Source of the DNA: Tannerella sp.
GTDB taxonomy: Bacteria; Bacteroidota; Bacteroidia; Bacteroidales; Tannerellaceae
Direction of reading: 5' to 3'
DNA: 42,511 nucleotides
Assembly (NCBI RefSeq): GCF_030528505.1
Contig: NZ_JAUMYS010000021.1
Span: forward strand, 1-42,511
Below the pieces are notes generated by a model. The model searched no databases and was not told the DNA's origin. It saw only the letters and a program-made list of their open reading frames with translations. A program made the position numbers and the translations under genes. Shown here in pieces: positions 8,190-26,563 of this stretch; positions within the stretch are counted from its first letter, which is position 1; each line of letters opens with the position of its first letter.

Positions 8190-11063
8190 ATGGCGAAAAA
8201 GAAAGAAAACAGTCAAAGCGAGCAAGTCGAAAAGGGAAGTATCGGCGTCTGGGGAGCACGTGTTCACAACCTGAAAAATATTGATGTCGTACTGCCCCGT
8301 AACAGTTTATCCGTGATCACGGGAATGAGTGGAAGCGGTAAATCGTCGTTGGCGTTCGATACGATTTTTGCCGAAGGTCAACGGCGTTATATCGATACGT
8401 TTTCGGCTTATGCCCGGAACTTTTTAGGAGCCATCGAACGGCCCGATGTCGATAAGATAACCGGATTGAGCCCGGTCATCTCGATCGAACAGAAAACGAC
8501 GAACCGGAACCCGCGTTCGACAGTGGGGACAACCACCGAGGTATACGACTTCTTGCGTCTGCTCTATGCGCGTGCCGGCGATGCCTATTCCTATCTGAGC
8601 GGAGAGAAGATGGTCAAATATACCGAAGAGCAGATTCTGGAACTGATTCTACAGGAATATAAAGGCAAAAAAACGTATATGCTTGCTCCGCTGGTGCGTA
8701 ACCGGAAAGGGCACTACAAGGAGCTGTTCGAACAGATACGCAAGAAAGGCTATCTGAATGTCCGTGTCGACGGCGAATTGCAGGAGATACGTCACGGCAT
8801 GAAGCTGGACCGTTATAAGATGCACAGTATCGAGGTGGTGGTCGACAAGATGATTGTTTCCGCAACCGACGGACAACGCCTGAAAGAAAGTCTCCGTACG
8901 GCGATGAAGCAAGGCGACGGATTGATTCTTCTGCTCGATCCCGACAGTGGCCAGACACGCTATTACAGCCGGCGATTGATGTGCCCCGTGACGGGACTAT
9001 CTTACAGTGAACCGGCGCCGCATAACTTCTCGTTCAACTCTCCGCATGGCGCGTGTCCGCGCTGCAAAGGACTCGGAGAAGTGAATATTCTGGATATGGA
9101 AAAAATTGTCCCGGATCCTTCACTGAGTATTTATAACGGAGGCATCGTGGCATTAGGGAAATATAAAAAATCACTCATCTTCTGGCAGATCGAGGCGCTT
9201 TGCGAAAAGCATGGCGTCACGATCAAAACGCCCATTAAAGATATTCCCGAAGAGGCTATGGATGAGATTATGAACGGTACCGAAGAGCGGATTCATATTC
9301 GGAACGAATCATTGGGTAGCTCCAATTATTTTTATTCGTACGAAGGAGTTGCCAAATACATTCTGATGCAGCAGGAAGATGATGCTCCGGCTTCGGCGCA
9401 GAAATGGGCGGAGCAGTTTATCAGCATGACCGAATGCCCCGAATGTCATGGACAACGCCTCAATAAAGAGGCCTTACATTATCGTATCGATGGAAAAAAT
9501 ATTGCCGAGCTGGCTCAGATAGATATTGCCGAATTAGCGAGATGGATCAACGCGGTAGAGAAAAAGATGCCGCCATCGCAACAGAAAATCGCGGTGGAGA
9601 TATTGAAAGAAATTCGCTCCCGACTTCAATTTATTCTGGAAGTCGGCCTCGATTACTTGTCTCTGAACCGACCTTCGGCCACGCTTTCGGGCGGAGAGAG
9701 CCAGCGCATCCGACTGGCTACGCAAATCGGTAGCCGGTTGGTCAATGTACTGTACATCCTCGACGAACCGAGCATCGGATTACATCAGCGGGATAACAAG
9801 CGGCTGATCGATTCGCTCAAGGAACTACGTGACATGGGCAACTCGGTCATTGTGGTAGAACATGATAAAGACATGATGCTGAATGCCGACTACGTGGTCG
9901 ATATGGGGCCTAAGGCCGGTCGTCTGGGTGGGGAAGTCGTCTTTGCCGGCACTCCGCAAGAAATGATTGCAACCGACACGCTAACTTCTTCATACTTGAA
10001 CGGAAAAAGATCGATCAATGTACCAGCCGTTCGCCGTAAAGGAAACGGCCATTGGCTTGTTTTGAAAGGAGCTACAGGAAATAACCTGAAGAAGGTCGAC
10101 GTGTCGTTTCCGCTGGGTACGCTGATTTGCGTCACCGGCGTTTCGGGAAGCGGCAAATCGACCCTTATCAATGCCACCCTTCAACCGATTTTGAGCAGAC
10201 ATTTCTACCGTTCGCTCCGCTCGCCTCTCGGCTATCAGTCGGTCGAAGGATTGGAACATATCGATAAGGTGGTGGATGTGGATCAGTCGCCGATAGGACG
10301 ATCTCCCCGCAGCAATCCGGCCACTTATACCGGAGTGTTTTCGGATATCCGTAATCTGTTTGTCGAACTGCCGGAGGCGAAGATACGCGGGTATAAACCG
10401 GGACGTTTCTCGTTCAATGTGTCGGGAGGACGTTGTGAAACGTGTAAAGGAAACGGATATAAAACGATTGAGATGAACTTCTTGCCTGATGTATTGGCTC
10501 CTTGCGAAGACTGTCACGGCAAACGTTATAATCGTGAGACGCTGGAAGTACGCTATCGCGGCAAATCGATCGCAGACGTGCTGGATATGACCATCAACAT
10601 GGCTGTCGAATTTTTTGAAAATATACCTTCTATTCTAAATAAAATCAAAGTGCTGCAAGATGTAGGATTGGGGTATATCAAATTGGGGCAACCTTCGACA
10701 ACATTGTCGGGAGGAGAAAGTCAACGGGTGAAACTTGCGGCCGAACTGTCGAAGCGTGATACGGGACGCACACTCTATATTCTGGATGAACCGACTACAG
10801 GATTGCATTTCGAAGATATCCGCGTGCTGCTTGGCGTACTGAATAAACTCGTCGACAAAGGGAACACGATTATCGTGATCGAGCATAATCTGGACATCAT
10901 CAAATGTGCGGATTACCTTATCGATATGGGTCCTGACGGTGGAAAGCAAGGCGGCCAGGTACTGTTTGCCGGAACACCGGAAGCACTGGTAAAAGCCCAT
11001 ACAAAGAGTTTTACGGCACCGTTTCTAAAAGAAGAACTAACTGACAATATTCATATTAAATAA
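8190..11063 (+). CDS. uvrA: Excinuclease ABC subunit A (UvrA)
   Basis: 957 residues, the usual UvrA length. UvrA is the damage-scanning ATPase of nucleotide excision repair, working with UvrB and UvrC. Two ABC modules are visible: Walker A GMSGSGKSS at about 45-53 and GVSGSGKST at about 650, and signatures LSGGESQRIRLA near 498 and LSGGESQRVKLA near 838, each followed by LDEPS/LDEPT. Zinc motifs CPRCKGLG (about 288) and CETCKGNG with CEDCHGKRYN (about 748-775) are present. The first zinc module starts CPVTG rather than C-x2-C, so its first half is irregular. No LexA-type site was evident upstream, and the gene sits in an operon-like run. Confidence 0.97.
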   Translation: MAKKKENSQSEQVEKGSIGVWGARVHNLKNIDVVLPRNSLSVITGMSGSGKSSLAFDTIFAEGQRRYIDTFSAYARNFLGAIERPDVDKITGLSPVISIEQKTTNRNPRSTVGTTTEVYDFLRLLYARAGDAYSYLSGEKMVKYTEEQILELILQEYKGKKTYMLAPLVRNRKGHYKELFEQIRKKGYLNVRVDGELQEIRHGMKLDRYKMHSIEVVVDKMIVSATDGQRLKESLRTAMKQGDGLILLLDPDSGQTRYYSRRLMCPVTGLSYSEPAPHNFSFNSPHGACPRCKGLGEVNILDMEKIVPDPSLSIYNGGIVALGKYKKSLIFWQIEALCEKHGVTIKTPIKDIPEEAMDEIMNGTEERIHIRNESLGSSNYFYSYEGVAKYILMQQEDDAPASAQKWAEQFISMTECPECHGQRLNKEALHYRIDGKNIAELAQIDIAELARWINAVEKKMPPSQQKIAVEILKEIRSRLQFILEVGLDYLSLNRPSATLSGGESQRIRLATQIGSRLVNVLYILDEPSIGLHQRDNKRLIDSLKELRDMGNSVIVVEHDKDMMLNADYVVDMGPKAGRLGGEVVFAGTPQEMIATDTLTSSYLNGKRSINVPAVRRKGNGHWLVLKGATGNNLKKVDVSFPLGTLICVTGVSGSGKSTLINATLQPILSRHFYRSLRSPLGYQSVEGLEHIDKVVDVDQSPIGRSPRSNPATYTGVFSDIRNLFVELPEAKIRGYKPGRFSFNVSGGRCETCKGNGYKTIEMNFLPDVLAPCEDCHGKRYNRETLEVRYRGKSIADVLDMTINMAVEFFENIPSILNKIKVLQDVGLGYIKLGQPSTTLSGGESQRVKLAAELSKRDTGRTLYILDEPTTGLHFEDIRVLLGVLNKLVDKGNTIIVIEHNLDIIKCADYLIDMGPDGGKQGGQVLFAGTPEALVKAHTKSFTAPFLKEELTDNIHIK

Positions 11064-12122: not shown

Positions 12123-15100
12123 TGGTCAATTCTACAATAGTGCGATTAAAAACGGGGTTTCTATGTCTTCTGTTGTAAAAACAATAGTATTTCAATTCTA
12201 CGATAGTACGATTAAGAGGATGCTTACGCTTTTTTTTGTCCGACTTCGGAGCGTTTCAATTCTACGATAGTACGATTAAGAGTTCGAGTGGTGGTGTATG
12301 CAGCTTATGTCGAAGGGGTTTCAATTCTACGATAGTACGATTAAGAGTGGCCGGTTACGATCTGGATATAGCGGAAAAAAGTGTTTCAATTCTACGATAG
12401 TACGATTAAGAGACATCGGCCGCACGACGGGATGCCTCCCCAACCATCGTTTCAATTCTACGATAGTACGATTAAGAGGGGCTCAGAGAGGAGTTGCTAA
12501 AGCGCGGCATTACGCGTTTCAATTCTACGATAGTACGATTAAGAGCAGGAAGTAGCTCGTCTATCAAGCTTAGGTGTAAGAGTTTCAATTCTACGATAGT
12601 ACGATTAAGAGCCAAGGCGGAAGCCAAGAAGCAGGCAGACCAGGCCAGTTTCAATTCTACGATAGTACGATTAAGAGCTTTTTCAGGGCCGTTTTTTTTA
12701 GATCATAGAGATGTTTCAATTCTACGATAGTACGATTAAGAGCGATCCCCAAAAACCGGGACAGAGCGGCCTGCCCGCGTTTCAATTCTACGATAGTACG
12801 ATTAAGAGAGTTGTTTACAGTCTTGCAAAGTCTATGCCTCCGCGTTTCAATTCTACGATAGTACGATTAAGAGGTTTTCTTCGCCCCACGCTTCCAGCTC
12901 CCGGAACGCGTTTCAATTCTACGATAGTACGATTAAGAGACTTTGTCGCCCCAAAAAAACGGATGCACGATCTGATGTTTCAATTCTACGATAGTACGAT
13001 TAAGAGCTTCAAGCAGCATCCCCTGCTCTTTCGATTCTTCGGTTTCAATTCTACGATAGTACGATTAAGAGATGGGTAGCCTTGCCAGGCTATCCGGGGT
13101 CAAGGTCGTTTCAATTCTACGATAGTACGATTAAGAGAAATGTAAGGGGTGTGACGAATATTCTTGCGTATGCGTTTCAATTCTACGATAGTACGATTAA
13201 GAGTAAAAAAAGCGATCGGATATGACGTCGCCCGAATCGGTTTCAATTCTACGATAGTACGATTAAGAGAGATTTCTGACAGAAATAACGATCTCGCGTC
13301 TTGCGTTTCAATTCTACGATAGTACGATTAAGAGCCGCACCGGCTTCGGGAAACACGAGCGTCTGCCCGTGTTTCAATTCTACGATAGTACGATTAAGAG
13401 GGGGTAAAAGGAGAAGTGCTTGTAGAGCGCACGGTGTTTCAATTCTACGATAGTACGATTAAGAGGGACAGATCAGCGCGAACAGCTGTTCCGTCTTGCG
13501 TTTCAATTCTACGATAGTACGATTAAGAGGCTGAAAGGTCGATTTGAAACCGGAACGGAAGGGAATGTTTCAATTCTACGATAGTACGATTAAGAGAGCG
13601 CCCGTGCAATCTTTAAATTCGCCCCACGCTCAGTTTCAATTCTACGATAGTACGATTAAGAGCGCAAAGCAGGCATGGTGCAACGGTGTGCAGTTTATTG
13701 GTTTCAATTCTACGATAGTACGATTAAGAGATTGTTATTTCTATATCAATATCGCAAGACATGTCATGTTTCAATTCTACGATAGTACGATTAAGAGATG
13801 CAGTCCGTCGAAGGTCATTTGCGAGAGCAGCGTTTCAATTCTACGATAGTACGATTAAGAGATTCCGAAAGTTTTATGAAAAGAATGACAATTAAAGAGT
13901 TTCAATTCTACGATAGTACGATTAAGAGCGTCAGCGGCGCGATACGTTCGAGGATGCCGATCGCGTGTTTCAATTCTACGATAGTACGATTAAGAGCTGA
14001 TCCGCCTGCATCAGCAGCGCGGCGTAGTGACTGGTTTCAATTCTACGATAGTACGATTAAGAGAGTTTCAACTTCTACGAAAAAATCGCGATTGCAATTG
14101 TTTCAATTCTACGATAGTACGATTAAGAGAGCTCATCCTTATGCTTTTTCGTGTTGATCATCGTAGTTTCAATTCTACGATAGTACGATTAAGAGCAAAA
14201 GAGGTGCACGGGCTGTTAAAACTTCCGGATTGTTTCAATTCTACGATAGTACGATTAAGAGATACAGGCGATGAGAGAGGGTAAGAGGATAACCCACGTT
14301 TCAATTCTACGATAGTACGATTAAGAGGGTCTGCGAGTGTAGCAAATGCGGGTATATGATTCAGTTTCAATTCTACGATAGTACGATTAAGAGTTAGTAA
14401 AAGTAGAAATTCAGGAAAGCGACCTCGAATGTTTCAATTCTACGATAGTACGATTAAGAGGTAATGTCCGGCCTTCATTGCGAAAGTTTCATCTTTGTTT
14501 CAATTCTACGATAGTACGATTAAGAGCAGTACTGTACAAGCTCAATCGCATAAGGATCACGTTTCAATTCTACGATAGTACGATTAAGAGAAAGCAAAGT
14601 AGCGGAAACCGTTCTGCAAAGGCCGGGTTTCAATTCTACGATAGTACGATTAAGAGCGCCGCCGGAGCCTCTTGTAGAGGTGACGATCGCCGGTTTCAAT
14701 TCTACGATAGTACGATTAAGAGTGCTGAGGAGGCGAGCCAGTTAACAGCTCTTCTAAGTTTCAATTCTACGATAGTACGATTAAGAGCTGGCCGCTACGC
14801 CTTTCATTTCGTCAAAACTAAAATTGTTTCAATTCTACGATAGTACGATTAAGAGTGATTTGATGTTCACGCGACTAAAAGCGGCGAAGAAGTTTCAATT
14901 CTACGATAGTACGATTAAGAGTCTTGACGTCAAACGAGTACTTCAAAATCTTCCCATGTTTCAATTCTACGATAGTACGATTAAGAGGCACCCGATCTTT
15001 TACCCGCCCGATCATATCCGAGGTTTCAATTCTACGATAGTACGATTAAGAGCGAGAACGTGCGCGAAAAAATGTCTGCTTATGCCGCGTTTCAATTCTA

Positions 15101-16637
15101 CGATAGTACGATTAAGAGTACATGAGGTATAAAAAAATAAAGACGTGTGCTTGTTTCAATTCTACGATAGTACGATTAAGAGTATGCTTTATTTAAGCTT
15201 ATTTCTTTTTCTAGTATGTTTCAATTCTACGATAGTACGATTAAGAGCCTCTTTCGCTTGCTTCCGAATCGCACGAGAAGCCAGTTTCAATTCTACGATA
15301 GTACGATTAAGAGTCCATGATTACGGGTTTCAGCTTAATCAGGTATTCGTGTTTCAATTCTACGATAGTACGATTAAGAGAATTTACAGGTGAGTTTAAC
15401 ACTTTAGGAGATTTACGTTTCAATTCTACGATAGTACGATTAAGAGAAGCCTTACCCGCTCCACTTCAGGAAGAAGACGAGGGTTTCAATTCTACGATAG
15501 TACGATTAAGAGCAAGCAATCCTCGCGCGTGTAGCGTTCCGGCCACGAGTTTCAATTCTACGATAGTACGATTAAGAGTGGATATGTATTCGCGGTTGAA
15601 AGACCCCGAACATCGGTTTCAATTCTACGATAGTACGATTAAGAGACATCGAAAGAGGTTGCTCTTTTCACTATACAGGGAGTTTCAATTCTACGATAGT
15701 ACGATTAAGAGTATGCTGAGGAGGCGAGCCAGTTAACAGCTCTTCTAAGTTTCAATTCTACGATAGTACGATTAAGAGGCTGCACGGCAGGCTTTCATTG
15801 CCCGAAAAACGGCGTTTCAATTCTACGATAGTACGATTAAGAGAAAAAAACCGACATTCAGAGTAAATGGATAGAAAAGCGTTTCAATTCTACGATAGTA
15901 CGATTAAGAGTTCGGCTTCGGCTCCGGAAAACGTCGCCGAGCAAAGTTTCAATTCTACGATAGTACGATTAAGAGCCGGGAACGAGTTTGGCATCGCCGG
16001 GCAATACGTACGTTTCAATTCTACGATAGTACGATTAAGAGTTGAATATCGTATATTCTCTGATATTCAATTCCAATATGTTTCAATTCTACGATAGTAC
16101 GATTAAGAGCATTTTATTCGGTTCTTTTAAGTCTGTATAAAACGTTTCAATTCTACGATAGTACGATTAAGAGCTAAGAAGAAAGTTTAAGCATACCGGA
16201 TATGCTATCGTTTCAATTCTACGATAGTACGATTAAGAGCGTTTACGAACAGCGACTCGTCGATCCGTATCACGGTGTTTCAATTCTACGATAGTACGAT
16301 TAAGAGACCAAATACTAACTCTTTATACAAACAATGAAGAGGTTTCAATTCTACGATAGTACGATTAAGAGCGAAGCCGTTGCCGGCTCGACGTCGAACG
16401 TAAACGGTTTCAATTCTACGATAGTACGATTAAGAGTTAATATACCTTCCTGATTTATAGAAGCGTTGTAGCTGTTTCAATTCTACGATAGTACGATTAA
16501 GAGTCATACTCCTTATGCGCTCCGCCGGTTAAGCTGTCGAGTTTCAATTCTACGATAGTACGATTAAGAGGATTGAAAAAAGAAGAATTGTACACAAGAC
16601 TTTTAATGTTTCAATTCTACGATAGTACGATTAAGAG
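12123..16637 (-). CRISPR. Type I-B CRISPR array: 69 repeats, 68 spacers
   Basis: The repeat is 30 bp. On the plus strand it starts GTTTCAATTCTACGATAG and ends TACGATTAAGAG. I counted 67 identical copies, one at 12189 with A for the first G, and one decayed copy at 12123-12152 (7 mismatches). Spacers are 34-38 bp. The decayed copy marks the old end, so the leader is on the right beside cas2 and transcription is leftward. In that sense the repeat ends ATTGAAAC, the classic 8-nt 5' handle of type I-B crRNAs. The left-most intact-spacer region is the oldest and 16571-16607 the newest. Open frames in the array on the plus strand are artefacts of the repeat. Near-perfect repeat identity suggests a maintained array. 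Confidence 0.99.
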
Positions 16638-16849
16638 CCGTTAGAAACGACAAAAAATATAACTGATTTTCAAGCAATCAGCTTTTAAATACATAAACAA
16701 TTCAACAAGTAAAGTTGTCGAAGTGCAAAGATAGAAAAAACCCCGCACTTCGACAACTGTTTTTATATTCTGATTTTCAATATGTCAAAGAACGCATAAC
16801 AGCGATGCTCCCATTCTTTTTTCGGGAAGAGACGTCCACCGACAACCGG
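16638..16849 (-). promoter_or_regulatory. CRISPR leader
   Basis: The AT-rich, gene-free stretch between the newest repeat and cas2 is the leader. It contains an 11-bp direct repeat CTGATTTTCAA at 16663-16673 and 16770-16780, a CTGATT/AATCAG hairpin at 16663-16681, and the array promoter within a 13-bp inverted repeat. The copy of CTGATTTTCAA nearest the array starts 26 bp from the first repeat, a distance at which leader motifs recognised during spacer insertion often lie. Confidence 0.8.
16714..16757 (-). promoter_or_regulatory. CRISPR array promoter framed by a 13-bp inverted repeat
   Basis: On the minus strand TATCTTTG (16733-16726) is a -7 box with TTG (16756-16754) 20 bp upstream. GTTGTCGAAGTGC (16714-16726) and GCACTTCGACAAC (16745-16757) are perfect inverted copies that cover the -33 element and the expected start site (about 16719). 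The array transcript would begin about 80 nt before the first repeat. The inverted repeat could be an operator or an adaptation-factor site. Confidence 0.65.
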
Positions 16850-18670: not shown

Positions 18671-19210
18671 TTATGAGTTTCCGTACTGCGCCGACTCTCC
18701 GTAATAAATCAAAAAGAGTTCCGCCATTTCATCGGCGAAACCGTATCCACAAAATGATGCATACTTCACGCAATCGGTGCAGCGAAGTTTGAAGTTTTCC
18801 AACAAACCATGCTTTGCCATAAAGTCCAAGGCTCGCTTGAAATTATTTGCGGCACCATTGTAAAAAGGCTCGTCCATATCGCCAAACTCACGAGTAAAGC
18901 GGCAAGCAGCCTCCGGTAAGGAGAGCATTAAATCGGCCAAAGCATCAGGCGAGGGTTTCAACGAAGCAAAATCGGATATCGCCTTCTTGGCAACAGAATA
19001 CTTCAATCCGGCTTTCATCGGATTTCTTATACCAAATTCTTTTTCAATAATGGCTTTGTACTTCTTTATCTTTTCTTTTTCATTCGGCTGAAGATAAAAA
19101 TCAAAGTACTCTTGGACGGCTTTACTGTTATCGTAAGCATCTAACACCACCTCGACGATTTGTTCTTTCGTGAGAGATTCGAGGAGTTTTTTGAGACTGA
19201 TTTTGGACAT
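18671..19210 (-). CDS. DUF6155-like protein inside the cas operon
   Basis: 179 residues, mostly helical: MSKISLKKLLESLTKEQIVEVVLDAYD, AVQEYFDFYLQPNEKEKIKKYKAIIEKEFG, YSVAKKAISDFASLKPSPDALADLMLSLPEAACRFTREFGDMDEPFYNGAANNFKRALDF. The wording matches what I know as DUF6155, a family of unknown function. It lies 3 bp after cas3 and 7 bp before cas4, so it is part of the operon, between the interference and adaptation genes. A late Cys pair (RCTDCVKYASFCGYG) might bind metal. No known cas family matches. It may be a passenger or an accessory factor; the sequence alone does not decide. Confidence 0.7.
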   Translation of the reverse strand: MSKISLKKLLESLTKEQIVEVVLDAYDNSKAVQEYFDFYLQPNEKEKIKKYKAIIEKEFGIRNPMKAGLKYSVAKKAISDFASLKPSPDALADLMLSLPEAACRFTREFGDMDEPFYNGAANNFKRALDFMAKHGLLENFKLRCTDCVKYASFCGYGFADEMAELFLIYYGESAQYGNS

Positions 19211-19213
19211 AGA

Positions 19214-21514
19214 TTATAAAATATTATTAGTTATATGCATTTCTACCTCATTTTCTTTAATTTGAAGACCTAATTCAGAAGTGTATTTTCTATCAATTAC
19301 AAAATAAGTATTCAGGAAGCTTCTTCCATTTTTATTTATTTCACAGACTCTTTTTTCTATGGTTCCTACTTGTAGCAAACTTACAAATCTTCTTTTTGAT
19401 ATCTGTACTTTTAAAGATTCTGCCTTAATAAACTCATATTCATTCAACAATGATTTATATTTTTCTTCATGAATTATGGGAATAACTTTGATTCCATCAA
19501 ATCGAGCATAGAAATCTTCCTCTGTTTGCGAGGAAAACATAAAAGGAGCTAATTGTGTTTTCGTCAAGTTGCTTAACTCTCTGTAAATAAATTCGAATTC
19601 ATCTTTTTCTTTTTCATTCCAATCAGGATATACAAAATCAATAGCTTCTTGTAAACGCTTTTCATCAACAAACTCGTCGAATATAGAAAGAGCTTCAAGC
19701 GTTCTGTCAATAATTTCTTGACTTTTGTAAATGTATTTGTCCGCTTTATTTCGCTCTTTGAAAACATAACAGCTACATATCCCTTTTCGCCGTCTCCGAT
19801 TAACCCGCCCAAAGCGCTGTATTAAAGCATCAATAGGAGCAGGTTCAGTGTAAATCACGTCAAAGTCAATATCCAAACTCACTTCAATAGCCTGTGTACC
19901 AACTAATAGTTTCACATTTTCCTTTCCTAACTCTTGTTCTTTAAAATTCCTGTCAGTCGCATTGAAACTTCCGTGTAATAAAACCTTATTCTTACAAAAA
20001 ATTCGGTCATATACCTGCTGTGATTGCTCTACGGTATTACACACAACCAATACTTTCTTATCACTATTTAAATCGTTTTGTATGATATCTACACTATTTT
20101 CCAGCAGTCCGTCCAAGAGCACAACTCGGTGTCGCGTAAATTGATGATATAATTCATCTGTGGCTTTAATCTCACAATGCTCTCCTACCGCCTCTTTCAA
20201 TATTGTTTTCAGATAATGGGGCAGTGTTGCTGTCATTATAAAAATATTTACTTTTAAATATTTTATCGCAAATTCTATCAAAACAATTATCTGGGCAAAT
20301 ACATCTGGTTGATAAGCATGTATTTCATCGAATATAAAATAACCGCCAGCCCATTCAAATAAACCTTTTTCAAAGTTTTTCAAGCCAAAAATGCTTTTCA
20401 ACAACTGAAAAGGTGTTACAACCTTTAATGGTGTTACTATTGTTTGATAATCTTCTTTTAACTTACGCACCAAATACTGTCTTTCAGATGAAGAAATGGT
20501 GGAGTTCCTTCGCTCAATCAAGTTCTCAAGATATTCACTCAATTTCCCGTGCTGCAGCCCTACTTTATTTTTATTTCCTATATCATTTCCCAAGCGTTCA
20601 TACATTGCATTAATGGATGCAGTAAAAGGCAACACATAAAAGACTCTCCCTTGTCCAGAACATTTTAGTTGGTTTTGAAGCCAAAGAAGAGCCGTTTCTG
20701 TTTTTCCGGAACCCGTAGGTGCCGTCAAAATGACATTTCCTTGCTGTCGATCAGCTTGAATTTGGTGTGAATAGAAGTCAAATCCCGATTGCTTAAGAAG
20801 TCGCCTTTTTTCCGATAGGAACTTAAAATCGGCTGTACTTAAGTTTTCAATATTAGAAATACCAGCTGACGACAAATGGTCGCATTGTTTGAACGCTCCC
20901 GACATCAAAAGCAAATCTAAATAACGAGATTCGGATAGCATCACAGGGTTACGCTTATAGTCCAAAATGAATTTGCGTGGCAATGAGCTACTGAGAGGTC
21001 CAAATGCTAAATCAAAAGAAATCAATAGCTCTTCTACAAACTTGACATTGACATTTTTCTTAAACTCATCTTCATAACTGAGTTTCCCGTCATCTTCATT
21101 CTCAAAACCAAAATTAAATCCGTTTGCTTGCCGATAAGTTTTTTCAATCCTTAGAAATAATTCGTTGAAATCTTTATGGTGTCCAGCTACAACCAATCTG
21201 ACAATCTCTTTTTCACTGGCATCTATATACATACTATTGATGAATGGTATTGAAAATAGCTCGTGTCGCTGTGAAAACCACCGGTTTTTCTCTCCTCTTA
21301 ACACATGCTGGAATTCGGAATGCACTTTGCCTAAATCATGGCAAATAATGCAAATACGTAAAATGTCCCAAAATCTTTCAGAACAAAGTTTTGTCAGAAT
21401 AGGAAAACTTGTTTGCAGGCAATCCAAGACTCTTAGCCCATCGTCAATATGCTCTTTCAAAGTAACCGCAGGTTCGGATTTTGCCCAAACCTGCAGTTTA
21501 TTTGTATCATTCAT
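19214..21514 (-). CDS. cas3: CRISPR-associated helicase/nuclease Cas3
   Basis: 766 residues from the ATG at 21514, which follows the cas5 stop by one base; a longer frame from 21580 would overlap cas5 and is less likely. The N-terminal HD nuclease has LKEHIDDGLRVLDC, ICHDLGKVHSEFQH, QRHELFSIPF and VAGHHKDF. The superfamily 2 helicase follows: LTAPTGSGKTETALLW (motif I), IFDEIHAYQPD (DEIH), FIMTATLPHYLK (III), LIQRFGRVNRRRR (VI). Cas3 is recruited by target-bound Cascade and degrades the displaced strand. All HD and helicase motifs are intact. Together with cas5, cas7 and cas8 it is clearly more AT-rich than cas1, cas2, cas4 and cas6. Confidence 0.97.
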   Translation of the reverse strand: MNDTNKLQVWAKSEPAVTLKEHIDDGLRVLDCLQTSFPILTKLCSERFWDILRICIICHDLGKVHSEFQHVLRGEKNRWFSQRHELFSIPFINSMYIDASEKEIVRLVVAGHHKDFNELFLRIEKTYRQANGFNFGFENEDDGKLSYEDEFKKNVNVKFVEELLISFDLAFGPLSSSLPRKFILDYKRNPVMLSESRYLDLLLMSGAFKQCDHLSSAGISNIENLSTADFKFLSEKRRLLKQSGFDFYSHQIQADRQQGNVILTAPTGSGKTETALLWLQNQLKCSGQGRVFYVLPFTASINAMYERLGNDIGNKNKVGLQHGKLSEYLENLIERRNSTISSSERQYLVRKLKEDYQTIVTPLKVVTPFQLLKSIFGLKNFEKGLFEWAGGYFIFDEIHAYQPDVFAQIIVLIEFAIKYLKVNIFIMTATLPHYLKTILKEAVGEHCEIKATDELYHQFTRHRVVLLDGLLENSVDIIQNDLNSDKKVLVVCNTVEQSQQVYDRIFCKNKVLLHGSFNATDRNFKEQELGKENVKLLVGTQAIEVSLDIDFDVIYTEPAPIDALIQRFGRVNRRRRKGICSCYVFKERNKADKYIYKSQEIIDRTLEALSIFDEFVDEKRLQEAIDFVYPDWNEKEKDEFEFIYRELSNLTKTQLAPFMFSSQTEEDFYARFDGIKVIPIIHEEKYKSLLNEYEFIKAESLKVQISKRRFVSLLQVGTIEKRVCEINKNGRSFLNTYFVIDRKYTSELGLQIKENEVEMHITNNIL

Positions 21515-21515
21515 C

Positions 21516-22190
21516 TTATTCACTAAAATTAATTTCGTGAAAGTAGATGTGCACTTCTCGTTCTTTATCGGGAAAGTCAATGTATGCGGGTAAACTCGTA
21601 GGGATATCCATTGTCTTAAAATTTATGACTGAATAAGCTTCCGTTCCGATATTTTTTCGGGGAATAGTATTTGTAAAATATTTAGGTAAAGGTTGGATAG
21701 TTCCGGGTAGATGATTTCCATTAAAAGGGATGATTTGCCCTTTTATTTTTGATGCATTACCTACGGATTCCATCTCTATCTTTTCGATACTATTTATGGT
21801 TGCTAAATCACTGGAACGCCCCAAAAGCAGTTGAAATACCGGTCTATTGAAATGGTCAGCCAAATCTTTATCCGCTAAATAAACCACCAAATGATTATCA
21901 TACAAAAACTCTCTGTTTATGACATTAGATTTGGAAGTATTTTTGGGATAACCCTTATCATGCAATTCAATTTGATAAATTGTCTCTAAATCTACTTGCT
22001 TTGATTTAAATTCAAAATAATAACCGATTGTCAACTTTTTGTGCTTGATGTATTTACCCGCCGCAGCATTGATAAGTCCTAAAATTGTGCTAATTGGCGG
22101 GACTTCAAGTGTAGGTTGGTATCCCGATATTAAATTAGGATATTTGAAACTTGAAGTCCACGCTGTTATGTCAATCTTAAAAACTTCCAT
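21516..22190 (-). CDS. cas5: Cascade subunit Cas5 (type I-B, Cas5t-like)
   Basis: 224 residues. The N-terminal RAMP strand and loop read MEVFKIDITAWTSSFKYPNLISGYQPTLEVPPISTILGLINAAAGKYI, the hallmark of the Cas5t/Cas5b group. The rest (YQIELHDKGYPKN, REFLYDNHLVVYLAD, FQLLLGRSSDLATI) carries the thumb and second fold. Cas5 caps the crRNA 5' handle in Cascade. The gene lies one base after cas7 and one base before cas3. The handle in this locus is ATTGAAAC. Confidence 0.93.
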   Translation of the reverse strand: MEVFKIDITAWTSSFKYPNLISGYQPTLEVPPISTILGLINAAAGKYIKHKKLTIGYYFEFKSKQVDLETIYQIELHDKGYPKNTSKSNVINREFLYDNHLVVYLADKDLADHFNRPVFQLLLGRSSDLATINSIEKIEMESVGNASKIKGQIIPFNGNHLPGTIQPLPKYFTNTIPRKNIGTEAYSVINFKTMDIPTSLPAYIDFPDKEREVHIYFHEINFSE

Positions 22191-22191
22191 T

Positions 22192-23256
22192 TTAGAGTTG
22201 TGTTTTTAACTGTTCGGTGTATTGGTCTATGGCTTCATTGATTGTAAGCACCTTCACGTTATTTAACTCTTTCTCCAACGCTGCCAATTCGGTCGCTTTT
22301 TCATCCATAAATCCACTCCTACGACCAATAAATACAGTACCTTTTATATTATTTTTGTAATCCAAAAGCACCTCTTTTAGAGCTTCAATATTTAAATTAA
22401 CAACTTCATTGTCTTTCCCACTTGCCGAAGCAATGTGAGAAAAGGGATGATTTCCGCTATCAAATGTGGCAAGAACAATAAATTTAGGTGTTACATCGCC
22501 TAAATTATTCGTTTGCATTGCACCACCCGATATATTCTTCAATGCTAAAATTGTTTCGGATATTCTTTTTTGACGAATGTTTTTGTCCAAGCGAACCAAT
22601 TTATAAGGATTTCCCTTTTCATCTTTCATATATGGATCGTCAATTTCTGCGGCTTGATTTTCCAACGCTTCTTTCTTGAGAGCCTCCGTTAAATTTTTAT
22701 AACCCGTTTTATTGTACGTAGCAAACGTACCAGCCTGTTCCAAATCCAAGCTGAACATTCCTTTCATAACGGCACTATATTCTTGTTTTCCATAAGGAAC
22801 AGAATCTCCATCTTGCCGTGCCATACTCGACCAGTTTTCAATTGGACGAACAGAACCGACAGAAATTAATACCGAATTTTTGAGAGGAGAAACCCTTGTT
22901 ACAGTAACATTTTCTTTTTTTGTTTTGCCTTTTTTATCAATCACTTCCTCCGATGCGGCTTTCATATATCCAAAGATGTCGTCATCGGCATATTTAATCG
23001 GATTAGCAGCCGTAAAGGCAACTTTACTGTCGCGTGTTATGGGCGACAAATCCCAATTAAATGTTTTTTGCAAGGTATCACGCCACCAATAGCGCCACGC
23101 TTGTCCCGATACATAAACATAACTTTTCCCTTCTTTGTAGATTTTTTTGGTTTCAACCGCATTATCAAAATTGCTTTGATTATTCTTACCGGCGTTGTTT
23201 AACGCTACCACATCTACATCAATAAGAACAAACCCCTGAGTTTTAATATTTTTCAT
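22192..23256 (-). CDS. cas7: Cascade backbone Cas7 (Cst2/DevR family)
   Basis: 354 residues. The start MKNIKTQGFVLIDVDVVALNNAGKNNQSNFDNAVETKKIYKEGKSYVYVSGQAWRYWWR is typical of the DevR/Cst2 Cas7 family of type I-B. Later blocks VTRVSPLKNSVLISVGS and SGGAMQTNNLGDVTPKFIVLATFDSGNHPF are also family-like. Six or so copies coat the crRNA spacer, with thumbs that flip out every sixth base. It follows cas8 by 22 bp and leads into cas5. DevR proteins were once noted as autoregulators in Myxococcus, which is of interest given the promoter region described at 24831-25028. Confidence 0.95.
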   Translation of the reverse strand: MKNIKTQGFVLIDVDVVALNNAGKNNQSNFDNAVETKKIYKEGKSYVYVSGQAWRYWWRDTLQKTFNWDLSPITRDSKVAFTAANPIKYADDDIFGYMKAASEEVIDKKGKTKKENVTVTRVSPLKNSVLISVGSVRPIENWSSMARQDGDSVPYGKQEYSAVMKGMFSLDLEQAGTFATYNKTGYKNLTEALKKEALENQAAEIDDPYMKDEKGNPYKLVRLDKNIRQKRISETILALKNISGGAMQTNNLGDVTPKFIVLATFDSGNHPFSHIASASGKDNEVVNLNIEALKEVLLDYKNNIKGTVFIGRRSGFMDEKATELAALEKELNNVKVLTINEAIDQYTEQLKTQL

Positions 23257-23278: not shown

Positions 23279-24706
23279 TTAGTTATTCTCTAAATCTTCA
23301 TCTTTGTTTTCCTCTTCTGAGTTCAAAAGCTCCTCTATCACGCGGATATTTTTTGCATGAAGTTCTTGATAAACTGCAAAAAGTAAAATATCCCGAACAT
23401 CTTTCCAGGATAAATCATCGGGGAACAAGTAATACACTAGTTCTTCAACAGTAATTATAGGATCCTGCGCCCCATCATTATAATTCTTTCCAGTTACATT
23501 TTTCAAAAAGAATCTACGTAAGTCGTAAGCTGTTTTAGCTCCATCCAATTTACGGATATTCTTTTTTATAGCATCTTCATTACCTGCCGTAAGAAAAAGT
23601 GCCAATTCCTTGATTTTGTTTAATGTTTCTTTTTTCATATACTGTATGTTTATTTGATAAATTTCAACGATAGACAAGGGGAATTTATGACGTTTACCCC
23701 AATTCAAAAAGAGCTTTAAAAGTGGTTTTCCGTCCAATAGGCTTTCCAATACAATATTCTTCCATGTCCTATAGTCATTATATTCAACTTTGTCAATTTG
23801 CCCTTTTCTCTCTAATTCGTATGCCGTGGATGAAATATTGTATTTTGCATTTTTGAACTTTGAATTTCGGTAATGAGCGAAGAGGAATGATTGCCAATCC
23901 TTTCTAAACATTGCATTTTGACATGTTGAATAAAATCTGAAAACGGAGGAAGGCAACGTATAGATACTTATTTCGGGACTTGCGCCAAAATTAGTAAAAT
24001 GATACAGTGTAATTGCGAAACCCTCTAAACTATCCATGACTTCTTTTATTTTATTGGTAAATAAATCATCAATAAAATGAAAAAGTGCATTTGCCGGAAT
24101 ACCATAATCCGATTTCAAAACTCCATCCGACGCAGAAATAGCCAAATTTGCAAAGTTCTCTTTGCAAGTTTGAATCACAAAAAACTCATTTACAGAATCA
24201 TTATTACTCTGAATCACACCTATTCGTCCACCAATGAATGTAGATCCAAAAGGAATGAAAAACATACGAATCAACATCTCTTTGGATAACATCAGTCCTA
24301 CCTGAAAAGAGTGGTGATAATTCACAAACCCACCCGATCCGGACAACAATGTGTTGTCTCTGCCGGATTTAAATAATTTGGTCTGCTGTCCTGAAATCCG
24401 ACAATAACCCTCTTCACAAGGTATTGTTTCATCTATTAATGATGAAAAATATTTTATGGTTTCATCAATTTTGCGTTCTCCTTTAAAGGCCGGCTGAGTA
24501 ATCGCCGAATTAAGAAAAAAAGGATTGATTTTTCCATCCCATTTCTTCACATAGATATCGGCAATTAGTTTTATCAACTCCAAAATATCTTTGTCGGGAT
24601 ATTTCTCCGACAAATATTTAATCACGTATCCACCAACATCGGCAAAAGGATCACCGGTAAGGCGAATCAACCAATCATAATCAACTGTCTTACAATTCTT
24701 TTTCAT
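23279..24706 (-). CDS. cas8b1: Cascade large subunit Cas8b1/Cst1
   Basis: 475 residues from MKKNCKTVDYDWLIRLTGDPFADVGGYVIKYL at 24706; an upstream ATG at 24730 would add 8 residues. The start and the blocks INPFFLNSAITQPAF, GSGGFVNYHHSFQVGLMLSKEMLIRMFFIPFGSTFIGG match type I-B Cas8b1 (Cst1). The large subunit reads the PAM and anchors the crRNA handle. Only one cysteine pair (PCEEGYC) is seen where related Cst1 proteins have CXXC-CXXC, so the zinc site is degenerate. A highly acidic tail ends the protein. It is the first gene of the main cas operon. Confidence 0.9.
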   Translation of the reverse strand: MKKNCKTVDYDWLIRLTGDPFADVGGYVIKYLSEKYPDKDILELIKLIADIYVKKWDGKINPFFLNSAITQPAFKGERKIDETIKYFSSLIDETIPCEEGYCRISGQQTKLFKSGRDNTLLSGSGGFVNYHHSFQVGLMLSKEMLIRMFFIPFGSTFIGGRIGVIQSNNDSVNEFFVIQTCKENFANLAISASDGVLKSDYGIPANALFHFIDDLFTNKIKEVMDSLEGFAITLYHFTNFGASPEISIYTLPSSVFRFYSTCQNAMFRKDWQSFLFAHYRNSKFKNAKYNISSTAYELERKGQIDKVEYNDYRTWKNIVLESLLDGKPLLKLFLNWGKRHKFPLSIVEIYQINIQYMKKETLNKIKELALFLTAGNEDAIKKNIRKLDGAKTAYDLRRFFLKNVTGKNYNDGAQDPIITVEELVYYLFPDDLSWKDVRDILLFAVYQELHAKNIRVIEELLNSEEENKDEDLENN

Positions 24707-24830
24707 AAGGATTTGTATAAAACCAACCACAAAAACATTAAATACAACATCTTGGTTCTATTATAATTATATATATTTCTCATATCAACAAATCAATCTC
24801 TGAATTTATTTTCATGATTAATTAATACCG

Positions 24831-24865
24831 CAAAAATACAAAATCCAATTGATATAAATCAATTA
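24831..24865 (-). promoter_or_regulatory. cas8 operon promoter with palindromic element / crRNA-like target
   Basis: On the minus strand TATTTTTG (24838-24831) is a -7 box and TTG (24862-24860) a -33 element 21 bp upstream. The -33 region lies in AATTGAT-ATAA-ATCAATT (24847-24864), an inverted repeat with 7-bp arms. The segment 24848-24865 is matched at 17 of 18 positions by the small RNA at 24926-25028, with CCA (24845-24847) at the PAM position. Binding of Cascade or of a repressor here would block the promoter. Confidence 0.6.
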
Positions 24866-24912
24866 TTATCATAAAAAATGATTGACTTTTTTTATCAAAG
24901 AAAAATCTTCTA

Positions 24913-24920
24913 TATCTTTG
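24913..24920 (+). promoter_or_regulatory. -7 box for a small RNA upstream of cas8
   Basis: TATCTTTG is a perfect TAnnTTTG box on the plus strand, divergent from the cas8 promoter. No good TTTG stands about 20 bp upstream, only a T run, so strength is uncertain. Transcription would start near 24926 and end at the terminator at 24992-25028. Confidence 0.55.
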
Positions 24921-24925
24921 CATCG

Positions 24926-25028
24926 CTTTTAATTGATACACAATCGTCCCAATATTGGATTTGAAAAATTGACATAAATCAATTAAGAGTCAATCCTTTT
25001 CATTTTTATTTTGAAAAGGATTTTTTTT
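24926..25028 (+). ncRNA. Predicted crRNA-like regulatory RNA (CreR/CreA-like)
   Basis: No open frame of note is present. From 24926 the sequence resembles the transcript-sense CRISPR repeat with short insertions: CTTTTAATTGATAC (repeat CTCTTAATCG-TAC), AATCGT (TATCGT), a small CCAATATTGG palindrome not in the repeat, then GGATTTGAAAA (repeat AGAATTGAAAC). About 24 of 30 repeat positions can be aligned in order. The last eight bases, TTTGAAAA (24960-24967), would be the 5' handle. The following ATTGACATAAATCAATTA (24968-24985) matches the cas8 promoter at 24848-24865 except at position 6, the position not paired in Cascade. A strong intrinsic terminator ends the unit. Such RNAs are known from other type I and V systems as self-repressing guides; for this repeat family it is inference. 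Confidence 0.55.
24992..25028 (+). terminator. Strong intrinsic terminator of the small RNA
   Basis: AATCCTTTTC (24992-25001) and GAAAAGGATT (25012-25021) form a perfect 10-bp stem with a 10-nt loop, followed directly by a T run (25020-25028) on the plus strand. On the minus strand there is no T run, so it is specific for the rightward RNA. Confidence 0.8.
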
Positions 25029-25101
25029 ATCAATCCAAGCTAAAGCAAATCTTTTAACATTGCTAATTCCTATTTGATCAAACGAATTAAACATCTTACT
25101 T

Positions 25102-25737
25102 TCAGTTTTTACTCCTACACATTCTCTCAATACTCGTCCAGACCTCCCTTAAGACTTCATTTGTTTCTTCGAGGTCGAAGAAGTTTATGTCCCATTTTTC
25201 ACCCTTCTTCATACCGAGCCATTGGCGGTATTCGTTATGTTCAGGATGTTTAGGGTTGTTTACGGCTTCCACCATATTGTAAAAGCCTCCAATACCGCCA
25301 CAATCCTCCTCCAGATTAGAGCCTTTTCCGGCAAGACAGAGCGGCAGAAGAACCGTATCGTCGGTGATATCCACCAATTCAACAATATGCTGCCAATCGT
25401 CACCAAAATCGTAGATATAGACGATCTTTTGTTTGACCTCCTTAAAATAGTCGCTTAGTCGGATTTCGTCGGCACGGTAAAGTTCACCATAAGGGAATGT
25501 GTCCCGCTCCGAAAAACTTTCATCCGGCTCATATTCTTCGTCAAAGCTGAGTGTTATTCTCGGATTGCTACCCCATCCTTTAGGTGTGAACTCAAACAGA
25601 TGTGAATCGGTCCATCCGAAAAGAATTTGAATAACTAAATGGAAATCATCGAACGTCATCGATTCGTTCACCTTCACTTTTCTCCATATCGGAGGTTTTG
25701 CACTGCCGTCGATCTTGATTTTAAATATAAATGCCAT
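25102..25737 (-). CDS. Plasmid pRiA4b ORF-3-like protein next to cas6
   Basis: 211 residues of the pRiA4b ORF-3-like family: AFIFKIKIDGSAKPPIWRKVKVNESMTFDDFHLVIQILFGWTDSHLFEF, then KIVYIYDFGDDWQHIVELVD and CLAGKGSNLEEDCGGIGGFYNMVEAV. The family occurs on plasmids and mobile elements and has no settled function. It starts 25 bp after the cas6 stop on the same strand, so it is probably co-transcribed with cas6. Downstream lies only the small RNA unit on the opposite strand. It might be a passenger or an accessory component. GC is like that of cas6, not of cas8. Confidence 0.85.
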   Translation of the reverse strand: MAFIFKIKIDGSAKPPIWRKVKVNESMTFDDFHLVIQILFGWTDSHLFEFTPKGWGSNPRITLSFDEEYEPDESFSERDTFPYGELYRADEIRLSDYFKEVKQKIVYIYDFGDDWQHIVELVDITDDTVLLPLCLAGKGSNLEEDCGGIGGFYNMVEAVNNPKHPEHNEYRQWLGMKKGEKWDINFFDLEETNEVLREVWTSIERMCRSKN

Positions 25738-25762: not shown

Positions 25763-26563
25763 TTATTGATCCGCTCTTCGTTTTACATCTGTCTCTTTCA
25801 CACAACCGAAGCCTTGACTACACTCTTCTCCAATGCCACTTTCGTACATAATTTTCATTAATTCAAGTGGGGCTTTCATCCTGAACCGGCACATGTAACC
25901 GCGCACTTTTGTTTGTGCCGGAGTATCGGATTTGATTTTCACTAACACAGACTTGGGTTCGTTAAGCACGGTAAAGTCAAAGGTATTCTCTCCGGCATAA
26001 GGTTTTCCGTAGAACGCTTCATATCGCCTCGACAAACCGGTTAGTATCGCATTGCTTGCGTAAGGAGAGACAGGCGAAAGATAGTCAAAGCCTCGATCTT
26101 CACGTCTCATCCTCAAACAGATCGGCGACATGGTTGTAAATTCCATCTCTTCAGTAAAAGCAGGAGTAGGCAAGACTTCTATATTTTTCACAATGAAACG
26201 AACGGTCGATTGGCGGTCTCCGATTTCAAACACCTGATTGGTGAAGAGTCCTTGAATAAATTTTTCCGTACTTTTTTCGGGCAGGAAAGAGATTTGCCAT
26301 TCGACCGAGTCGGACAAAATACGTATCCGTTCATTCCGCGGTAAGATTTGTCGATTATCGATTTTCAAACGGGAGAAGGTAAACAGCTTGAACGGCCGTC
26401 CAGACTCAAGTTGAAAACCATTCTGATGCAACCAATCGGCATATTGTTCACTGGCACGAGATAGGACACGATAAATCACAGCCGACTGTTCATATTGGTA
26501 ATTAATTGGCAGTAAGTCGCCGAATGCACGACGGTCGACTGTAAGCATTAATTTAAATCTCAT
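25763..26563 (-). CDS. cas6: CRISPR pre-crRNA endoribonuclease Cas6
   Basis: 266 residues with two RAMP folds: MRFKLMLTVDRRAFGDLLPINYQYEQSAVIYRVLSRASEQYADWLHQNGF at the start and the glycine-rich loop YESGIGEECSQGFGCVKE near the end. His46 (DWLHQNG) is the likely catalytic base. Cas6 cuts the repeat to leave an 8-nt handle, here ATTGAAAC. It stands apart from the main operon, separated by the pRiA4b-like gene and the small RNA, and has its own promoter. It would also be the enzyme to process the crRNA-like RNA if that RNA is cut. Confidence 0.95.
   Translation of the reverse strand: MRFKLMLTVDRRAFGDLLPINYQYEQSAVIYRVLSRASEQYADWLHQNGFQLESGRPFKLFTFSRLKIDNRQILPRNERIRILSDSVEWQISFLPEKSTEKFIQGLFTNQVFEIGDRQSTVRFIVKNIEVLPTPAFTEEMEFTTMSPICLRMRREDRGFDYLSPVSPYASNAILTGLSRRYEAFYGKPYAGENTFDFTVLNEPKSVLVKIKSDTPAQTKVRGYMCRFRMKAPLELMKIMYESGIGEECSQGFGCVKETDVKRRADQ

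Follow-up and report, generated by a model that had tools for sequence, protein, structure and literature searches.

A putative CreR-type guide RNA upstream of cas8 in a Cst-type I-B CRISPR-Cas locus

The cas locus and the element upstream of cas8

The DNA analysed, hereafter the window, is the whole stretch of 42,511 nt from a host genome of 2.9 Mb, and it holds a type I-B CRISPR-Cas locus on its minus strand, in the order cas8b1/Cst1, cas7/Cst2, cas5t, cas3, a DUF6155 gene, cas4, cas1 and cas2. The array lies downstream of this operon and cas6 upstream of it:

23279 to 24706, minus strand: cas8b1 (Cst1; TIGR01908), the gene that immediately follows the targeted promoter
22192 to 23256, minus strand: cas7 (Cst2; TIGR02585)
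21516 to 22190, minus strand: cas5 (Cas5t; TIGR01895)
19214 to 21580, minus strand: cas3 (TIGR01587, TIGR01596)
25763 to 26563, minus strand: cas6 (TIGR01877), upstream of the targeted operon and, barring read-through, not part of it
12190 to 16640, minus strand: CRISPR array of 68 repeats CTCTTAATCGTACTATCGTAGAATTGAAAC and 67 spacers

The DUF6155 gene (18671-19210, minus strand) occupies the interval between cas3 and cas4 within the operon, and a plasmid pRiA4b ORF-3-like gene (25102-25737, minus strand) sits between the element described below and cas6; ORFs of similar size stand ahead of cas8 in two related loci (L038 and L040). Two spacers of the array (13 and 28, numbering from 0) are near-identical. 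Elsewhere in the same genome a lone ectopic repeat TTTTAATCGCACTATCGTAGAATTGAAAT, almost identical to the array repeat, was located (L057; G000:C44:5621-5650), with no second copy within the 3 kb examined and with no clear genome target for the sequence downstream of it (besides itself, one match with three mismatches, versus one in the control). The closest named Cas8 relative, at 64% identity, is that of a Prevotellaceae bacterium (L003), the sole genome_contigs match for Cas8, in which the sequence ends inside cas8 and no promoter is visible.

The element under study sits in the gap upstream of cas8 (24707-25101), where it faces the proposed cas8 promoter:

24831 to 24838, minus strand: -7 box TATTTTTG assigned to the proposed cas8 promoter; 24707-25040 has no other TAnnTTTG on this strand
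24845 to 24847, plus strand: CCA at the PAM position of the target
24848 to 24865, plus strand: target ATTGATATAAATCAATTA (protospacer side), covering the -33 region of the cas8 promoter
24913 to 24920, plus strand: -7 box TATCTTTG (TAnnTTTG type) belonging to the promoter of the small RNA, the sole one on its strand in 24707-25040
24926 to 25028, plus strand: proposed one-repeat CreR RNA of about 103 nt, bounded by box and terminator, its start being deduced
24926 to 24937, plus strand: 5' arm, predicted to form 12 bp (11 Watson-Crick, 1 G-U) with 24978-24989
24942 to 24967, plus strand: pseudo-repeat core with a possible hairpin CCA-ATAT-TGG and an 8-nt handle TTTGAAAA at 24960-24967
24968 to 24985, plus strand: 18-nt guide (pseudo-spacer) ATTGACATAAATCAATTA
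24992 to 25028, plus strand: intrinsic terminator AATCCTTTTC...GAAAAGGATT followed by a T-run, by sequence and fold (11 pairs, loop of 9)

In Bacteroidetes, the primary sigma factor is described as having TAnnTTTG for its -7 consensus (PMC7366714); in shuffles of 24707-25040, 0.25 such boxes are expected per strand. The box at 24913-24920, pointed out in a preliminary description of this DNA, proved correct in letters and position upon re-reading of the sequence, and the strong terminator that the same description had placed at 24992-25028 is likewise there, as an inverted repeat with its T-run; a simple terminator scan missed it, since its loop has 9 nt and the scan accepts loops of 3-8 only. 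Judging from the TAnnTTTG box on the cas strand, the matched stretch would be the active cas8 promoter. A sigma-70-like site, TTGATA-17-TATAAT (11 of 12 positions), is also present on that strand nearer to cas8 (24760-24788), 4.1 such sites being expected at the threshold of that scan; boxes of the sigma-70 type are reported to be missing from Bacteroidetes promoters (PMC7366714). If cas8 transcription started at 24760-24788, Cascade bound at 24845 would not block it and the model proposed below would fail.

With regard to the fold of the RNA, the 12-bp helix between 24926-24937 and 24978-24989 is reached in 34 of 2000 shuffles, and in 64 of 5000 when the guide is kept, so the predicted pairing of the 5' part CTTTTAATTGAT with the distal half of the guide is suggestive only. 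The stability of the hairpin CCA-ATAT-TGG is no better than that of shuffles (98/200). Upon comparison with Rfam, every listed match fell below its gathering score.

The preliminary description had taken the beginning of the RNA for a degenerate copy of the CRISPR repeat, which holds for 24942-24967 relative to the repeats of related loci and does not hold relative to the local array repeat. When the window's own repeat was compared with the element, scores as high came from 70 of 100 shuffled versions of a 1.9 kb region and from 120 of 1000 shuffles of the gap, and the likeness is not significant. On the contrary, against eight repeats or pseudo-repeats of relatives (single-test figures each; L033-L036, L044 and L047 were left out) only 0 to 15 of 1000 shuffles were as good as 24942-24967, and it is by this comparison that the element presents the repeat-like sequence outside the array and near cas genes by which CreR genes are recognized. 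In a repeat profile from which the window's own repeat was withheld, 24942-24967 is the top match of the window outside the array, with a score of 16.2, the best scores in five whole-window shuffles ranging from 9.7 to 16.5. The repeat-like core ends exactly at the first base of the guide. The array repeat would form a hairpin CTA-TCG-TAG, versus CCA-ATAT-TGG in the pseudo-repeat, so that, going by the letters, the stem would be kept with one changed pair. The 5' half, CTTTTAATTGATAC, equally described beforehand as a repeat copy, turned out weakly repeat-like, its first 12 nt being those able to pair with the guide. Divergence of the pseudo-repeat from the array is common among CreTA modules (PMC9458426), and the greater closeness of the present one to the repeats of relatives than to its own suggests that such RNAs can escape comparisons restricted to the local repeat.

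Guide, target and PAM

Guide ATTGACATAAATCAATTA and target ATTGATATAAATCAATTA were verified to agree at 17 of 18 positions with the lone mismatch at position 6, as were the presence of CCA at 24845-24847 and the location of the target over the -33 region relative to the box at 24831-24838. Pairing of seed positions 1-5 and 7-11 with position 6 left free is reported for the CreA RNA of Haloarcula hispanica (PMC8501985), and all ten of these positions of the guide pair with the target here. None of 4000 shuffles of the gap equalled the match, the best reaching 16, or 14 when CCN was required. With CCN and the seed taken into account, the target is the top site in the 42.5 kb window (10/10 in the seed, 18/22 overall), followed by a CCN-flanked site with 9/10 and 13/22. 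No second strong target, such as the promoter of an adjacent toxin, was detected in the window, the sole strong one being that upstream of cas8 (tiny RNA toxins fell outside the search). Between the end of the match and the -7 box of the RNA itself there are 47 nt, so that the small RNA promoter may stay free.

The PAM was deduced from matches of the window array to one IMG/VR virus record of 34 kb (IMGVR_UViG_2808606708_000001, G1246), which contains 13 protospacers with 1 to 6 mismatches; these remained out of 15 rows after two in the own genome with 9 mismatches were dropped. Their flanks read CCG in six cases, CCT in two, and CTC, CGG, CAG, CTG and ATT in one each, with C at -3 in 12 of 13 and C at -2 in 8 of 13, consistent with a CCN PAM with exceptions, although the record is GC-rich around the protospacers and a bias at the last base is possible. 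CCA at the target is thus compatible with the array PAM, an incompatible one having been named beforehand as a refutation of the guide reading, although CCA itself is absent from the 13 flanks. One spacer of another array with a similar repeat (L048) matches microviruses in three records, with CCA in both of the two that were inspected. When single spacers were scanned against viral_contigs, one of four matched an IMG/VR contig and three gave no match, and the window and L041 arrays gave no match in the phage collection. Since 13 of the 67 array spacers match G1246, that virus or its kin likely infects the host.

Occurrence of the element in related loci

Cas8 relatives were found in 1 of 41 genomes of the genus (the own one), 5 of 123 of the family, 17 of 393 of the order, 1 of 395 of the class and 9 of 395 of the phylum, as well as in 1 of 21, 1 of 5 and 2 of 6 genomes of three small families. 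A second draw from the order gave 14 of 393, mostly repeats of the first, and contributed one new near-full-length Cas8; neither viral_contigs nor plasmids yielded any. The comparison set comprises the window and 19 relatives with a near-full-length Cas8 (20 loci), genomes with partial or weak matches (G205, G285, G303, G453, G458, G518, G540, G560, G568, G665, G382) being left out. A made-up consensus repeat stood in for seven loci with no detected array; L085 received lighter scans, the best 12 windows per strand being considered, those on the plus strand corresponding to its array. Several contigs end near the locus, and that of L039 provides 515 nt upstream of cas8.

Elements were identified in 4 of the 20 loci (the window, L041, L044 and L042), while repeat, profile and guide-target scans gave none in the remaining 16. 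In L041 the layout is that of the window with unrelated letters, consisting of box, pseudo-repeat, guide, second pseudo-repeat and terminator:

L041, 3603 to 3635, minus strand: pseudo-repeat, preceded by box TAATTTTG
L041, 3564 to 3586, minus strand: second pseudo-repeat
L041, 3541 to 3564, minus strand: terminator

Its guide matches its own cas promoter at 20 of 21 positions behind CCA, which none of 4000 shuffles achieved, and its pseudo-repeat resembles the L041 repeat better than 100 of 100 shuffles do. The mismatch affects a seed position (7), and the match extends into the second pseudo-repeat, both of which count against a creR reading. Comparison with homologues had been put forward beforehand as a way to tell a guide from a palindrome, and it came out on the side of the guide: L041 retains the repeat-like part, the handle, the guide-target match and CCA, and its gap holds no palindrome of the kind seen in the window. 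With guide and target being equal in other letters and the FNR-like palindrome absent, the two appear to change together. A 71-codon ORF (L041:3767-3982), with a Pfam match below the cut-off, lies between the targeted promoter and cas8 and is possibly the first gene of that operon.

The pairing in the window and L041 was also approached by an unguided scan of all 20 loci for a handle-like 7-mer followed by an 18-nt guide with a CCN-flanked target within 1.5 kb. Only the window and L041 reached 17/18, the maximum in 40 shuffled loci being 16, and the offset from guide to target is 120 in the former and 112 in the latter. At 15/18 or above there is no excess (11 matches among the 20 loci, versus 18 among the 40 shuffled ones). 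These two loci thus stand out in the scan, nothing below them doing so.

In L044 the element occupies the same place and strand, with pseudo-repeats 36 nt apart, of which the first is not significant alone (570/1000 shuffles) and the second is (2/1000 and 0/100). No convincing target with PAM and seed was found for its guide, the best candidate, with 9/10 in the seed and CCG, lying some 190 nt within cas8. The window, L041 and L044 each have exactly one TAnnTTTG on the RNA strand of the gap, directly before the pseudo-repeat (0.30 per strand expected from shuffles for L041, in a stretch overlapping its gap in large part), and on the cas strand there are one in the window, two in L041, one of them near its target, and none in L044. 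In L041 the distance from the -7 box to the start of the target is 30 nt, and the target lies somewhat farther upstream than in the window.

The element of L042 (7270-9260, minus strand) is a mini-CRISPR with a 36-nt guide that, inside the cas locus, separates cas3 from an AbiEi-like/AbiEii pair, the AbiEi-like gene matching under the Pfam cut-off. None of 1000 shuffles was as good as its pseudo-repeats (9231-9260 and 9170-9194), and from its arrangement it may be considered a candidate CRISPR-guarded toxin-antitoxin. No target with PAM and seed was found for its guide; an ungapped 17/20 match just before cas6 was disregarded, as it lacks a CCN flank. By eye, a similar run of about 22 nt occurs ahead of the AbiEi-like gene and ahead of the first pseudo-repeat.

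In the Cas8 tree, L041 and L044 belong to different well-supported groups, the branch of the window being unresolved, and close relatives of both are without an element at that place. This patchy presence among near relatives seems to indicate that the element has often been gained, lost or moved. A repeat at a contig edge (L043:68-95) was interpreted as an array terminus and not as creR, and weaker repeat matches (L042:11732, L050:4773, L047:18874) were likewise set aside. The stretch upstream of cas8 in L046 holds several inverted-repeat copies around GACCTGTCAGG.

Proposed function and alternative readings

Taking these observations together, 24926-25028 is probably a creR gene of the one-repeat form by which Cascade would repress its own operon, a reading to which we assign a probability of about 0.8. 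The idea of a Cas-regulating guide RNA acting on its own cas promoter by CreR/CreA logic was already contained in the preliminary description, and it gains support from the PAM and from L041. In the proposed model, Cas6 would cut before TTTGAAAA and release an RNA beginning with this handle, which would load into the Cas8-Cas7-Cas5 Cascade and direct it to 24845-24865, where it would cover the cas8 promoter around -33 and block RNA polymerase. As pairing would stop after about 18 nt, Cas3 would not cut; competition of crRNAs for Cascade, or a disabled Cascade, would free the cas8-to-cas2 operon. Beyond the match itself, these steps are what we infer.

Some quantitative background is available for the type I-B system of Haloarcula, for which it is reported in PMC10989794 that (i) CreA works with an 11-bp seed, (ii) 24 bp of pairing repressed with neither interference nor priming, and (iii) repression was weak with spacers of 16 to 20 bp, which left 44 to 67% of the transcript. 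Pairing in the window (18 nt) and in L041 (21 nt) remains under 24 bp, a limit that comes from another organism. The weak repression by short Haloarcula spacers, the FNR-like palindrome in the match, the insignificant likeness to the local array repeat, the 16 loci in which no element was found, the lack of a convincing target in L044 and the absence of CCA from the 13 protospacer flanks count against the creR reading.

That palindrome is the basis of an alternative in which the two matching stretches are sites (TTGAT-N4-ATCAA) for a Crp/Fnr-type regulator, one over the cas8 -33 region and one downstream, with no guide RNA involved. Both 14-mers fit TTGAYNNNNRTCAA, which we take to be the consensus of that regulator type, and they are the only two in the window, at least two being present in 3 of 100 shuffles. 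However, the match runs past the palindrome to 17/18, and the second copy would lie about 40 nt inside a terminated transcript, directly after the handle-like TTTGAAAA. Moreover, neither L041 nor L044 has the box in its gap; it is found nowhere in the L044 locus examined and only at 9408 in L041, about 5.4 kb past the cas8 start, whereas L041 keeps guide and target equal in other letters. We therefore regard a regulator pair as very improbable. Judged similarly improbable is a structured RNA with no CRISPR ties, acting as an antisense to cas6-to-cas8 read-through or as a leader or attenuator made of the 12-bp helix and the terminator. That helix is uncommon among shuffles, as given above, and a cas6 transcript could conceivably cross the region, but the repeat-like core, the handle, the CCN ahead of the match and L041, predicted to fold with no such helix, would be left unexplained, and the listed Rfam matches all score below gathering level. 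Lowest of all we place a decayed remnant of an array or leader, a lone old repeat beside a duplicated stretch with no present function. A pseudo-repeat nearer to the repeats of relatives than to the present array, and the other lone repeat on contig C44, would suit such decay; the retention of promoter box, terminator, PAM and all ten seed pairs together, and the recurrence of the layout in L041, which belongs to another Cas8 group, argue against it.

Coming back to the creR reading, CreR stands for Cas-regulating RNAs (Liu et al. 2023, Cell Host Microbe; via PMC13131331, PMC12737573, PMC12948488), and autorepression by them is reported for types I-B, I-E and V-A (PMC13131331; also PMC12737573, PMC12948488). 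The mechanism itself is therefore not new for type I-B, but the host lineage (Bacteroidales) and the Cas8 family (Cst1) may be. No title on a Bacteroidota CreR appeared among the literature matches listed for CreR-like RNAs, including those for CreR combined with Bacteroidetes terms, and words beginning with Bacteroid- are absent from the main texts of PMC12737573, PMC8501985 and PMC9458426. The window element shares with CreR the ectopic mini-CRISPR, the partial match to the cas promoter and the proposed Cascade-guided autorepression, and differs in the said lineage and Cas8 family. Its architecture is that of the one-repeat creA of the H. hispanica CreTA, in which a terminator replaces the second repeat (PMC8501985), having pseudo-repeat, guide and T-rich terminator and no second pseudo-repeat; the target is the cas8 promoter region here and a small RNA toxin promoter there. 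L041, L042 and L044, with two repeat-like segments flanking the guide, rather resemble the two-repeat CreA of Halobacterium hubeiense (PMC8501985), L041 departing from it in its short spacer and in a match that enters the second pseudo-repeat.

If correct, the present reading would extend RNA-guided Cas autorepression to Cst-type I-B systems, probably of Bacteroidales, with L041 as a second case in other letters that acts as a natural covariation, and with PAM and exact coordinates available for reporter work. A broader proposal, which we consider rather unlikely as a whole, is that of a family of ectopic mini-CRISPRs in the type I-B loci of this lineage that would have been redeployed repeatedly, as creR over the cas8 promoter (window, L041 and perhaps L044) and as guard of an AbiE-type toxin-antitoxin (L042); the 5' half of the window pseudo-repeat would then form a 12-bp lock over the guide, cutting by Cas6 would both mature and unmask the RNA, and the circuit would sense free Cas6/Cascade. 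Outside type I, autorepression of type II-A Cas9, presumably through the RNA named tracr-L, likewise shuts its own cas promoter by means of a natural guide, differing in class and in the RNA. Autorepression by SpyCas9 is mentioned in PMC13131331.
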